The notes under the pieces were generated by a model. It did no database searches. It saw only the letters and a list, made by a program, of their open reading frames with translations, and was not told the DNA's origin. DNA of 64,000 bases from an uncultured Clostridia bacterium (lineage in GTDB: Bacteria > Bacillota > Clostridia > Christensenellales > Borkfalkiaceae): the NCBI GenBank assembly GCA_947597925.1, contig CANQFA010000001.1, forward strand, positions 310,001 to 374,000, written 5' to 3'. This document shows, in pieces, positions 29,749 through 64,000 of this stretch; positions within the stretch are counted from its first letter, which is position 1, and each line of letters begins with the position of its first letter. Made by a program: the position numbers and the translations under genes.

Positions 29749-32700
29749 TTACAGGGCGCGGATGGACTCCACGGGCTTCTTCCTTGCCGCCAGCCAGACG
29801 GGGAGGAAGGTGGAGATGAGGGCGATCGCGAGGGCAAGCGCCATCATGAGCAGGGCGGAGAGGGGACCGAAGACGAAGAGCGCGACTTCGATGCCCGCCT
29901 CTGCCTTCAGGATCCCATTGAGGAAGGACGCCATAAAGACGGAGCCGATGAGGGAGATCACGGTGCAGATGAGCACGATGATGCCGCTCTCGGCGAAGAA
30001 GATCTTGAAGACGTCTACCCCGCGGGCGCCCACCGCGCGGAGGATGCCGATCTCCTTCTTCTTATTGGAGATGCTCATGGAGATGAAGTTGAAGAGCATG
30101 AGGGAGGCGAAGAGCGCCAGCACGACGCCCACCCACAGGAAGACCTGCGAGAGCATATCGATGATGGTATTCACCAGGACGGTGATGTTGTCGTACAGCC
30201 TGTTGTTCATCTGATAGTAGACGTCGCGCTCGTCCACGATCCCGAGACGGGCGAAGAGGGCGGAGAGGGCGGCGTCCGTCTTCTCGATGGGCGCGAAGAG
30301 GTAGAGGAAGGTCGCATCGCTCTCGGGCGTATAGGCCGTCGTCTCGCTGCGGTCATTGTAGTACATGCCGTCGAGGCTGTCGTAGAAGGACTGCGAGCAA
30401 TAGACGCCTTCATTGTACGACACATTGCCCTCGGGCGGCAGGTAGTATCCCACGACGGTGCATTCGGAGGCGCGCATGTCGCTGTCGCCGTGGTAGATGG
30501 CGAGCTTGAAATAGGGCGCGTATTCCTCCAGTGCGCTCGCGAAAAATTCCTTCGCCTCCTCCCCGACCTCGTCCTCCGCCGCGGGATAGATCACGGAATC
30601 GATCTTGGAGAAGAACTCCACATAGGCGTCGCTCCACGCCAGCTCGGCGGTATGATAGGCCTCCTGTGCGGCGTCATGGGCCTCCTGTGCGGCCAGCCAT
30701 GCGTCATAGGCGGGCTTCTTTCTCTCCCATTCGGCATGCGCCTCGCGGTAGCCCTCCTCGTCGTCGCCGAATTGCTCGGGCGTGGGCTCCTCGCCGGGAT
30801 ACTCGGGCATGGGATCCGTGAAGGGTTCGGGTTCCGTGGGAGCGGGGTTTACCTCCTCGTAGACGCTGTTAAAGAGGAGCCCAATGGCGCGGAGGGGAAG
30901 CACGAACTGGTCCTTTTCGAGGCTGCTCTTTCCCTTCGCCTCGCCGAAGAGGGTCACGGGGAGCTTGAGCTCCGCCTCGGGGTCATAGACCGCGAAGGAA
31001 GCCGTCTCGAAGACGGTCTGCGGGCCCATCTCGTAGGAGCCTGAGTCGTGCTTGAAAGAGAGCCAATCTGCGCCCATGGGGAAGTAGGGGACAAAGGTCG
31101 GGGTCGAGCTCATGAAGCCGTCTGCATACGCGTCGATGTATTCCTGCGAGACGAAGGCGACGGTGGCGAGCGAACTCGGCAGGAAGTTGCCGAAATCCAT
31201 CTGGAGCATGGCGTCGAAAGAGGACTCCTTCAGCGCCTCGTACTTTTCGGGGATGCCGCCGTCGTCGAAGACCGCAGTCACCTTCGGCGCGACATCTTCT
31301 CCCGCATAGCGGACGGGGATGCGCTTCCCGATGAGATCGGCTTCCGAGGAGATCTTTACCTCGCTGCCGATGCCGTACGGCCGTCCGTCTTCATCGACAT
31401 TGATGTCAAAGAAGGTCCCGTTTTCCGCGCAGTCGAGGAAATAGGAGCTCACGGCGATCTCGTCGAGCCCCTCGGGATAGCTGTCGCCGAGCTGCACGCG
31501 GATGGGATGATCTTCGGGCAGCGCCGCATAGTAGGCGATGGAGGGCTGGTAGTAGTAGGACTTCTCGATCGGGATATCGAGATTGGCGATGGACGTATTA
31601 TACGACCTGTACGCCCCGAAGGCGGTGTCGCCGAAGGAGGCGACCTCCGCGGGCGTGAAGAGGGCCTCTCTGTGGTCCGTATAGGAGTACTGACCGCCAT
31701 AGCTGCACTCCACCTCGTAGTACTTTCGGAAGGGGGCATAGGCGTAGTCGCTGTTTTTGAAGGATTCCACGAGCACGGCATTGCCGTCGTAAAACATCAT
31801 CGTCGAGGAGAGCCCGAAGAGGATGAAGGAGACGACGGAGAGAAGGATGGTCATGAGGAGGCGGAAGGGCTTCAGGCGCAGGCCCGAGGCGCCGATCCTG
31901 ATGGCCTTGCCCGCGGGAAGGCGGGAGCGGATGAACTTGGTCTTGGAGCCGTCGTAGGCTTCGGGCGCCTTTTCGGGGGTGTCGCGGAACTTCTCCCGCG
32001 CGCCCTCGTCGTCGATGTGCGCCGCCCGCCTGAAGCTCGCGACATCCTTTTCTCCGCGGGAGATGATGACGTCGCCCTCGCCCTCGGTGAGGAAGGCCTC
32101 GATCGCGGCGAGCTCCTGCCTCGAGAGGGGACCTCCGCGGTGCACGGTGAGCGTGTCGTCGCCGTGCCGCACGATGGCGCCCGAGACCTTTGCCTCTTCA
32201 CGCACCTTGGTCTCATCGGAGACGATCTTTCCGTCCTTGAGTTCCACGATGCGGTCGCCGTACGTCTCGGCAAATTCGCGGTCATGGGAGACGACGATGA
32301 CGAGGCGGGTCGCGGAGAGCTTTTTCAGCGTCTCGAAGACCTGCTTTCCCGTGGTGCTGTCGAGGGCGCCCGTGGGCTCGTCCGCCATGATGATCTGCGG
32401 GTCCTTGACGAGGGCGCGGGCAATGGCGATGCGCTGCTTCTGGCCGCCCGAGAGGGTATTCGGCTTGCGCTTCGCGAAGTCCTCGAGCTCGACGTCGCGG
32501 AGGATCTCCCCGATCTTCTCGCGGTCCTTCTTCTTTCCCTGCAGCTCGAGCGCGAGCGCGATGTTGTCCTCGACATTGAACTCATTGAGGATGTTATACT
32601 CCTGAAAGATGAAGCCGACGAAGGTATTTCGGTAGGAGTCGAAGTCGCCGCCCGAGAAATCTTTCGAGCTCTTTCCCATGACGATGACTTCGCCGCTCGT

Positions 32701-32874
32701 GGGTTCGTCGAGCCCGCCCGCGAGGTTGAGGAGGGTGGACTTGCCCGAGCCCGACTTTCCGAGCAGGAAGACGAGTCCCGTCCTGTCGAAGGAGATGGAC
32801 ACGTCGTCGAGTGCGCGCGTATCCTCTCCGCCCTTCGTCTTGTAGATCTTTGTGAGGTGCTTGAGTTCCAGCAT
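29749..32874 (-). CDS. ABC transporter with fused ATPase and FtsX/MacB-type permease
   Basis: LGKSGSGKSTLLNLAGGLD, LSGGQKQRIAIARAL, C-terminal FtsX TMs; large extracellular insert. Confidence 0.9.
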   Translation of the reverse strand: MLELKHLTKIYKTKGGEDTRALDDVSISFDRTGLVFLLGKSGSGKSTLLNLAGGLDEPTSGEVIVMGKSSKDFSGGDFDSYRNTFVGFIFQEYNILNEFNVEDNIALALELQGKKKDREKIGEILRDVELEDFAKRKPNTLSGGQKQRIAIARALVKDPQIIMADEPTGALDSTTGKQVFETLKKLSATRLVIVVSHDREFAETYGDRIVELKDGKIVSDETKVREEAKVSGAIVRHGDDTLTVHRGGPLSRQELAAIEAFLTEGEGDVIISRGEKDVASFRRAAHIDDEGAREKFRDTPEKAPEAYDGSKTKFIRSRLPAGKAIRIGASGLRLKPFRLLMTILLSVVSFILFGLSSTMMFYDGNAVLVESFKNSDYAYAPFRKYYEVECSYGGQYSYTDHREALFTPAEVASFGDTAFGAYRSYNTSIANLDIPIEKSYYYQPSIAYYAALPEDHPIRVQLGDSYPEGLDEIAVSSYFLDCAENGTFFDINVDEDGRPYGIGSEVKISSEADLIGKRIPVRYAGEDVAPKVTAVFDDGGIPEKYEALKESSFDAMLQMDFGNFLPSSLATVAFVSQEYIDAYADGFMSSTPTFVPYFPMGADWLSFKHDSGSYEMGPQTVFETASFAVYDPEAELKLPVTLFGEAKGKSSLEKDQFVLPLRAIGLLFNSVYEEVNPAPTEPEPFTDPMPEYPGEEPTPEQFGDDEEGYREAHAEWERKKPAYDAWLAAQEAHDAAQEAYHTAELAWSDAYVEFFSKIDSVIYPAAEDEVGEEAKEFFASALEEYAPYFKLAIYHGDSDMRASECTVVGYYLPPEGNVSYNEGVYCSQSFYDSLDGMYYNDRSETTAYTPESDATFLYLFAPIEKTDAALSALFARLGIVDERDVYYQMNNRLYDNITVLVNTIIDMLSQVFLWVGVVLALFASLMLFNFISMSISNKKKEIGILRAVGARGVDVFKIFFAESGIIVLICTVISLIGSVFMASFLNGILKAEAGIEVALFVFGPLSALLMMALALAIALISTFLPVWLAARKKPVESIRAL

Positions 32875-32901
32875 AGAGACCTCCTGAATGTCTGTAGCCC
32901 C

Positions 32902-32929
32902 ATTCTATCATGGGGGGGGGTACTGTCAA
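32902..32929 (-). promoter_or_regulatory. promoter TTGACA-16-TAGAAT with a C9/G9 tract in the spacer
   Basis: - strand: TTGACA GTACCCCCCCCCATGA TAGAAT; SD GGAGG before ATG 32874. Confidence 0.8.
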
Positions 32930-32955
32930 GTGATTTTTTGATATTTTTCGATTTT

Positions 32956-32984
32956 ACTTTATCATATCTTACAGAGGATGTCAA
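32956..32984 (-). promoter_or_regulatory. possible second, distal promoter TTGACA-17-TAAAGT
   Basis: - strand -35 at 32979-32984; weak extended -10 TGATAAAGT. Confidence 0.4.
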
Positions 32985-33026
32985 GTGTTTGGGAAAAGGA
33001 ATGCTTGCGAGGCAGGTGAACCCTCG

Positions 33027-33189
33027 CTGTCCCCTTGAGGGGAAAGTCCCCGCGAGGAACGAGCGGGGAATAGGGGTGTTCTTCCGATGCCGTGTTGTTT
33101 CCCACCCCCTCAGTCGCTGCGCGACAGCTCCCCCTCAAGGGGGCGCCAAGGGAGCTTTTCTGCGTTCCTCGCGATACGGCTTCCCAAGG
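33027..33189 (+). repeat. intergenic interspersed repeat, copy A
   Basis: CTGTCCCCTTGAGGGGAAAGTCC...CCACCCCCTCAGTCGC...CTCCCCCTCAAGGGGGCGCCAAGGGAGCTTTTCTGCGTTCC...CGGCTTCCCAAGG; offset 474 bp to copy B. Confidence 0.9.
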
Positions 33190-33288: not shown

Positions 33289-33500
33289 GTTATCCGAAAA
33301 AAAACCATTGGTTTTGTAAAGAGGACAAATCGCACGGCCTTTCGCGGCTTCCGAGAGGGCGCAAAGAGGGGGCTTTTTCGCTTCGATCGCCGAGGTCTGT
33401 CTACTTCTATTTTACCACACTTTTTTCCTTTCTCCGCCCTTAAGTGCCACCTTTTTGCGAAAAAATAAAAAAGAAGGGACGAGATCGTTTCTCGCCCTTG

Positions 33501-33667
33501 CTGTCCCCTCGAGGGGAAAGTCCTCGCGAGGAACGAGCGGGGCAAAGGGGTGTTCTTCCGATGCTGTGTTGTTCTCCACCCCCTCAGTCTCGCTTCGCTC
33601 GCCGGCTCCCCCTCAAGGGGGCGCCAAGGGAGCTTTTCTGCGTTCCTTGTGATTCGGCTTCCCAAGG
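33501..33667 (+). repeat. intergenic interspersed repeat, copy B
   Basis: near-identical to 33027-33189. Confidence 0.9.
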
Positions 33668-61953: not shown

Positions 61954-64000
61954 ATGATCGAAGTCAAGGGTCTTACGAAGGTCTATAAGAGCAGGAAGGG
62001 CGGCAAGTGTGTCGCCCTCGACCATATCAGCTTTACCCTCCCCGACAGGGGATTTCTCTTCGTCGTGGGAAAGAGCGGCAGCGGCAAGACGACGCTCCTG
62101 TCCCTCCTCGGGGGACTGGATACCGTCACTTCGGGGGAGATCATCGAGAACGGAAGACATATCGAGAAATTTTCCCTCGGCGAGCAGGTCTACTATAGAA
62201 ATTCGACGATAGGGTTCATCTTTCAGGACTTCCACCTCGTAGACGACTTGACCATCTATGAAAATGTCCTCCTCGCTCTGCAACTGCAGGGGGAGAAGGA
62301 CGGAGAGAAGGTCATGAAGGCGCTCGAGGAGACGGGGCTTGCGGAGTACAGGGACCGCTATCCGAAGGAGCTCTCGGGCGGACAGCAGCAGCGGGTCGCC
62401 ATTGCAAGGGCGCTCGTGAAGGAGCCCTCCATCATCCTCGCGGACGAGCCCACGGGCAACCTCGACAGCAAGACGACGGTGCAGATTTTAGACCTTCTCA
62501 AGGCGCTCTCGAAGACCAAGCTCGTCGTCATCGTGTCGCACAACTTAAGCGACGCCGAGCACTATGCCGATGAAATCATGGAGCTCTCGGACGGGAAGAT
62601 CTTACAGCATGTGCGGCGCAATTCCGCCTTCGATCCCCGCCTGCGGGTGGAGGGGGATACCCTCGTCATTCCGAGCGGGCAGGAATTTTCGGAGGAAGAG
62701 TTTGCGGAGGTCAACTCCTTTATGAAGAAGTGGTATCTCCGCGGCGCGCGCCCCGCACGGGACCGCTTTCTTCCCATGGAGGGACGAAAGAGGGGTACCA
62801 TGCCCGAGGGAGGGCCTCTCGAAAAGAGGCACTTAAGGTTCGGGCAGAGGGTAAAACTTGCGGGGAAATTTACCCGCCGCGGCGCACTTCGCGCCTGCGC
62901 CTACGCCGTCATCCTCGCCGCCATCATGGTGGTTTTGGGGCTTTCCCAGCTCATCATGAACTTCAACGGCGGCGAAGTCATCGCAAAGGAGATGGCGAAG
63001 CGGGACCTCTCCTGCACCTCCTTCATCAAGGACGACAACGACACCTACGAGAGGCTCGATACGACCCGCATTGTCGATGTCGAGGAGGGCGACCTGCGGA
63101 AATTTTATGACGCGGGGTATGAAGGAAAGGCCTATCCCCTCATCAACTACTCCTTTTATCTGACGAGCGATACCGTGCCCGTCTTCCAGAGGAAGCTCAC
63201 GCCCAAGGGCGGGCTCTATGACCTCGAATCGACCCGCGGCCTCCTCGTCACGGAGGAGAGTTTCGTCGAGAGGGCCTTCGGAAAGCTCGAATATGCGGCG
63301 CTTGCCGAGGAGCAGAGGAGCTATGGCGTCTTTCTTACCGACTTTGTCGCCGATGTCCTGCGCGCCGCCCGCCCCGCCGATTTTCCCTCCTACGAAAGTT
63401 TTCTCGGGCAATTTGCGGGATTCACCCTTCACAAGTACGGCTATATCAACGGAATTATCGACACGGGGTACAAAAAACGCCATGGAGATCTCGTGGCAAA
63501 ACTCGGCGACCCCCGCATCTCCCGAGAGGAATTGAGCAAAATTGCCGCGACCGAAGAGTACCTGACCTTTTACGACGAGCTGTACCAATATCTGAGTATC
63601 GCCTACTCTTTTAACCCAAACGTCGCGGAGGAGCTCGTATCTCCTGCAGCGAGGCAGTTTGTCAGCGCGGGCATCAGCGCCTTCGAGTACGGCGGGAAGA
63701 CCTTTACGTGGCAGGACAACCACTTCTCCTATGCGGGCATGAAAAATTCCGTGCCCCTTCGGGACAACGAGATCCTGATGAACTATGCGATCTACAATGC
63801 GATCTTCCAGACGAACTATACGCCGCAGACCATGGGCACCTTTACGCCGCATGAAGTGAAATATTCCTACTACCGGCTCTGCGATCGGGAGAGGTCGCAG
63901 AAAAAATTCGAGATGACGCTCAAGATCGTCGGGCTCGCGAACTACGACGGGATCCGGTGCAATGTCGCCGACAATGTCTTTCTCGAGATGCAGAAGGCGG
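61954..64000 (+). CDS. ABC transporter, fused ATPase-permease, truncated by window end
   Basis: ATG 61954; [51 protein letters not shown]; first [21 protein letters not shown]; no stop before 64000. Confidence 0.88.

Follow-up and report, generated by a model that had tools for sequence, protein, structure and literature searches.

The transporter gene and its promoter region

The locus considered here lies on the minus strand of the window, by which we mean the whole stretch of 64,000 nucleotides that was analysed. It comprises a gene for an ABC transporter, a ribosome-binding site and two promoters, the nearer of which has a homopolymeric tract between its hexamers:

29749-32874, minus strand: ABC transporter of 1041 aa in a MacB-like arrangement, its ATPase at the N-terminus and its FtsX permease at the C-terminus; the coordinates include the stop codon (Pfam)
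32880-32885, minus strand: ribosome-binding site AGGAGG (sequence)
32902-32910, minus strand: extended -10, TG-A-TAGAAT, with the hexamer at 32907-32902 (sequence and promoter scan)
32912-32920, minus strand: C9 tract (G9 on the plus strand) within the 16-bp spacer 32908-32923 (sequence)
32924-32929, minus strand: -35 hexamer TTGACA of the proximal promoter (sequence and promoter scan)
32956-32984, minus strand: distal promoter TTGACA-17-TAAAGT, a transcript from which would cross the tract (promoter scan)

The assignment of the downstream gene to the ABC transporters, made in an earlier note on this DNA, agrees with the Pfam matches: ABC_tran scores 107.6 bits and FtsX 64.2 bits, both exceeding the respective gathering scores of 25 and 25.5. 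Like the MacB-type ABC transporters, the window protein combines an N-terminal ATPase and a C-terminal FtsX permease in a single chain, and MacB chains are among its best PDB matches; however, these matches span only the ATPase (residues 1-230), the middle region being large and diverged, and against the MacB equivalog the protein scores 203.8 bits, below the NCBIfam whole-protein cut-off of 966. The neighbours within reach are on the opposite strand, save for the small rpmB, and the transporter gene is therefore probably transcribed alone. Genome G023 has a syntenic homologue (52% protein identity) that is without a tract promoter and stands in the order recG, DAK-domain gene, asp23, rpmB, transporter, dipeptidase (names from inspecting the translations). 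The window has a second ABC/FtsX-type frame (880-aa open frame) at 61954-63024 on the plus strand, with 42% identity to the query across the latter's first 382 residues.

On the minus strand the proximal promoter reads TTGACA (32929-32924), GTA-CCCCCCCCC-ATGA and TAGAAT (32907-32902), followed by AGGAGG and by the ATG at 32874, with a gap of 27 bp between promoter and gene. The letters and coordinates originally given for it, TTGACA-GTA-C9-ATGA-TAGAAT with a 16-bp spacer, are exact on that strand. Of the seven promoter-like sites between 30000 and 36000 (1.9 in shuffles), it scores the highest. The homopolymer sits between the two hexamers of a recognisable sigma-70 promoter with a gene directly downstream. 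The distal promoter, which had likewise been named before, is present as a pattern (TTGACA-17-TAAAGT), 55 bp upstream of the proximal one. Both -35 boxes fall within a repeated 12-mer (TGTCAAGTGATT / TGTCAAGTGTTT on the plus strand; window 32924-32935 and 32979-32990, 55 bp apart), which suggests a local duplication. Further upstream are two direct copies of about 170 bp (window 33021-33189 and 33495-33667), with stretches that are 92% identical and 474-478 bp apart, and with palindromic parts; the gap holding them is about 840 bp in the window versus only about 105 bp at the syntenic locus of G023.

Two further features of the region were considered as family traits and rejected. Tandem promoters, as part of the design, were found at only two of 108 family sites, which is near the random rate. 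An inverted repeat round the -10 (CCCCAT-GATAGA-ATGGGG), a candidate operator, is no family feature, the complementary downstream run being present at only 3/121 sites.

Occurrence of long G/C tracts in promoter spacers

In the G+C-rich window, a run of nine G or C is by itself nothing improbable: 1.59 are expected, and one or more turned up in 65 of 100 shuffles. It is the setting that is improbable. The 1.62-Mb genome has only three G/C runs of eight or more, whereas its base composition would predict about 168, and promoter spacers account for two of the three. The second of these, TTGACATTTCAT-G10-TGC-TATAAT, precedes a gene whose secreted product has a fibro-slime match below threshold. 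The third run (L098:15561-15569; G000 contig C9:29560-29568) is inside a 464-aa histidine-kinase ORF that adjoins a response-regulator gene, where it is a possible frame-shifting switch.

The distribution of such tracts points well beyond this genome. Spacer tracts of G7 or longer were recovered from 37 of 61 genus genomes and from 46 of 297 genomes of the order, with nothing from the reversed-pattern control in either set; across the phylum they were seen in 6/398 genomes, where the control gave two matches. The genus search amounts to about 100 real matches versus none for the reversed pattern. In principle, the window tract could be a chance run or an assembly artefact, and the expectation of 1.59 such runs per shuffled window accords with this. 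Nevertheless, the concentration of two-thirds of the genome's long runs in spacers, the genus-wide matches and the recovery of this same promoter from G764 (below), an independent assembly, leave this explanation with a very small chance of being right; although the run by itself is unremarkable, we reject a chance origin on its setting and recurrence.

Homologues of the window gene were searched for in 103 genus genomes. The one in G764 (77% DNA identity over 1153 bp, 51% protein identity) is preceded by TTGACA-TTA-C9-ATGC-TATAAT, likewise with a 16-bp spacer, while the surrounding bases have changed; the contig stops one base before the -35 and the comparison ends there. This sole homologue comparable for length at the window promoter carries the same C9. 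No long tract was found upstream of nine other homologues (L102, L259, L262-L267, L269); L261 and L268, having no readable start, were left out of this reading. Judged by these upstream regions, the C9 promoter is common to at least two species and is not general for the transporter gene. At a different locus, beside a clpB-like gene, the homologues of G018 and G011 have the promoters TTGACT-N9-G9-TATAAT and TTGACA-N9-G10-TATAAT, respectively; in these and most other cases the tract is on the opposite strand from that of the window. Together with G276, from another family of the order, these genomes provide instances of ABC/FtsX transporters with poly-G spacer promoters.

C-tract promoters, the type seen in the window, occur in 14 of the 61 genus genomes. 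Of the 15 C-tract matches, six belong to a single rplM promoter, which has a C7 tract and 17-bp spacing and is identical in six genomes; hence, spacer G/C runs can be inert. This promoter of the ribosomal protein L13 gene (L193 and its matches in G076, G056, G065, G007 and G006) offers a natural fixed-tract control. The G018 genome has 14 tracts of at least eight: eight lie between TTGACA-type hexamers, one is borderline (TTAACA, TATGCT), and five are inside ORFs with no promoter call. Related genomes, too, have long G tracts inside ORFs (L063, L244-L247, L249). In L244 the tract falls near residue 225 of an ABC/FtsX-type protein, and in L063 it is apparently early in a lipoprotein; these are possible translational switches.

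The genes downstream of the tract promoters are strongly biased in their products. By a simple heuristic rule, a lipobox is called in 72 of 118 downstream proteins versus 11 of 198 background ORFs drawn from the same regions and the window (P ~1e-27). Pfam domains in these targets include List_Bact, InlB-type repeats, BspA-type leucine-rich repeats, zinc-ribbon proteins and ABC transporters. Thus, tract promoters stand before several surface-lipoprotein genes, the window's own target being a transporter.

Spacing and length of the tracts

That other promoters mostly have a 17-bp spacer, as had been remarked in the earlier note, is confirmed by a count in two genus genomes: 107 of 143 tract-free perfect promoters are at 17 bp and 12 at 16 bp. 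The same spacing prevails in the genus among promoters with A7+ tracts (76/83) and those with exactly G5 (53/69). Promoters with G8+ tracts depart from it: only 8/76 in the genus are at 17 bp and most are at 15-16 or 18-19 bp, these sites being partly non-independent as some represent related cassettes. When each spacing is counted once per genome, for the genus and the order together, 6/78 are still at 17 bp. Shuffling tract lengths among the flanks gives an expectation of 11.3 promoters at 17 bp versus the eight seen (P 0.16). We accordingly make no case for a close matching of tract to flank; the bias away from 17 bp stems instead from the flank lengths combined with the tract mode of 9. 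An effect common to any homopolymer is likewise rejected, as A7+ tracts stay at 17 bp. The off-17 spacing is the strongest single argument for long G tracts being special, because the remaining promoters are so tightly held at 17 bp. The window promoter, at 16 bp, fits the tract class.

While the hexamers are constant, the strand, spacer position and length of the tract vary: in the family it is 7-14 long, lies 1-11 from the -35 and 0-9 from the -10, and is G or C on the coding strand. Lengths of 7, 8, 9 and 10 are represented by 5, 21, 62 and 17 unique promoters, i.e. with a mode of 9 and no fall-off from 7. Such a strong centring on 9 is compatible with an alternative in which the G/C run would set promoter activity directly, as a structural element or a binding site (a regulator operator, a G-quadruplex or A-like DNA), whose exact length is no switch and for which an off-17 spacing is the optimum. 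The clustering of spacings at 15-16 and 18-19 without an even spread also speaks for it, as does the uniformity of tracts among paralogues. In G002, about 20 near-identical tract promoters (L107-L112, L152-L157), mostly of the form TTGACA-A[AG]CA-G8-TGG-TATAAT with 15 bp and situated before a family of related lipoproteins, nearly all have G8, and about 16 paralogous promoters of this genome have G8 without exception; a set of promoters in G045 all have G9. This is unlike the prediction of frequent slippage alone. On the other side, the variable strand, position and length are unlike those of a fixed site, which we disfavour on these grounds; moreover, G5 tracts stay at 17 bp, and two separate spacing clusters misfit one shifted optimum. 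On balance, we regard a binding or structural role as unlikely.

Evidence on length differences comes from the closest pair of genomes, G001 and G071, which gave just two well-aligned tract pairs at >90% identity. In the first, a 5.1-kb alignment with 97% identity has six gaps, one of which is in the tract of a sister promoter: G8 versus G9, with spacings of 16 and 17 bp and identical flanks. The other runs of at least six in this alignment are of the same length, save for one substitution. The second pair shows a one-base difference at the tract edge (14 vs 15). Tract lengths differ in more distant pairs too.

It might still be argued that the window promoter is a normal, stable one: 16 bp with an extended -10 would be adequate, the distal promoter would do most of the work, and the run would be tolerated rather than used. 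This is in keeping with the ordinary promoters at 16 bp (12/143), the presence of both the extended -10 and the distal promoter, the tract-free homologues, and the rplM C7 fixed at 17 bp in six genomes. Speaking against it are long runs that are rare in the genome yet concentrated in spacers, the retention of the C9/16-bp layout in G764 despite changed surrounding bases, and the biases in spacing and targets at the sister promoters. Hence, we consider a stable promoter quite improbable.

A candidate spacer-length switch and its counterparts

The reading that we favour, with a probability of about 0.72, is that the window promoter is a spacer-length (porA-type) phase-variable promoter, belonging to an order-wide set that mostly drives secreted lipoproteins. 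The earlier proposal of a phase-variable transporter promoter holds up as a candidate, a spacer-length device being strongly favoured, on comparative grounds, by the recurrence, the off-17 spacing, the sister-site length difference and the surface targets. Further support comes from the tract mode of 9, from the variable strand, position and length of the tract between constant hexamers, and from the C9 kept in G764. Its framing as an ABC-transporter case is right as to the target; the site is, however, not isolated, being one member of that mainly lipoprotein set. Replication slippage in C9 would add or remove single base pairs between the -35 and -10, such that C8, C9, C10 and C11 would give spacings of 15, 16, 17 and 18 bp, the best fit being C10 (17 bp), with differing transcription of the MacB-like transporter. 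The predicted outcome is a standing population variety in cell-surface proteins. That tract lengths change by slippage inside a population, and that expression follows, we infer. Counting against this reading are the uniform tracts of G002 and G045, the equal lengths in the window and G764, the nine homologues that lack the tract, and the opposite strand of most other tracts; moreover, lengths read from metagenome-type assemblies may reflect a consensus or errors.

The switching originally envisaged gives way to a prediction of graded tuning, as opposed to a clean ON/OFF change. That the transporter would be tuned rather than switched off is suggested by the second, 17-bp promoter upstream, by the extended -10 (TGA-TAGAAT), and by the spacing of 16 bp, which is also that of 12/143 ordinary promoters. 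The distal promoter probably supplies a basal level while the tract tunes the output; it could also mask any switch.

For the order as a whole, we offer a conjecture with even odds: long spacer G/C tracts would be a main device by which surface lipoproteins and envelope transporters are varied. Tract and flank lengths would usually miss the 17-bp optimum by one or two bases, leaving most loci weak by default, and single slips would raise individual genes. If true, the order holds a large set of contingency loci that can be found by one sequence pattern and read from metagenomic reads without culture, and this would explain how its cells vary their surface. The recurrence of the tracts suggests a random retuning of surface display across the order. 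The contrast at 17 bp (11% of long-G-tract promoters versus 92% for A tracts and 77% for G5) would furnish a statistical signature for phase-variable promoters from assemblies alone, and tract-length spectra at the roughly 100 tract loci would be a clear test of switching.

Among the open-licence papers searched, we recognised none on G/C-tract promoters in the present clade and found none on slippage in gut Clostridia with metagenome-assembled genomes. In the gut bacterium Bifidobacterium breve, deep sequencing has uncovered mixtures of G-tract lengths in pilus genes, and the authors of that study mention G-tracts in promoter spacers too (PMC9187656). Unlike the present tracts, those tested there cause frameshifts within coding sequences, and the organism is of another phylum.

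By their anatomy, the tract promoters appear to resemble two known systems, namely those of porA and vlp. In the porA promoter of Neisseria meningitidis, gain or loss of one base in the spacer poly-G is reported to alter porA transcription (PMC3899988). Both cases have a G/C homopolymer between the two hexamers; however, porA is a single outer-membrane protein gene, whereas the promoters described here precede many unrelated genes, mostly for lipoproteins, are order-wide and are known from sequence alone. In Mycoplasma hyorhinis, a poly-A in the promoter region of several vlp surface-lipoprotein genes is associated with ON/OFF transcription (PMC10502178). Homopolymeric promoter tracts before multiple surface-lipoprotein genes are thus shared with vlp. 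The differences lie in the base and in the breadth of the targets: vlp combines poly-A with one paralogous lipoprotein cluster, whereas here poly-G/C is combined with many unrelated lipoproteins and transporters, and the A-tract promoters of the present genus keep to 17 bp.
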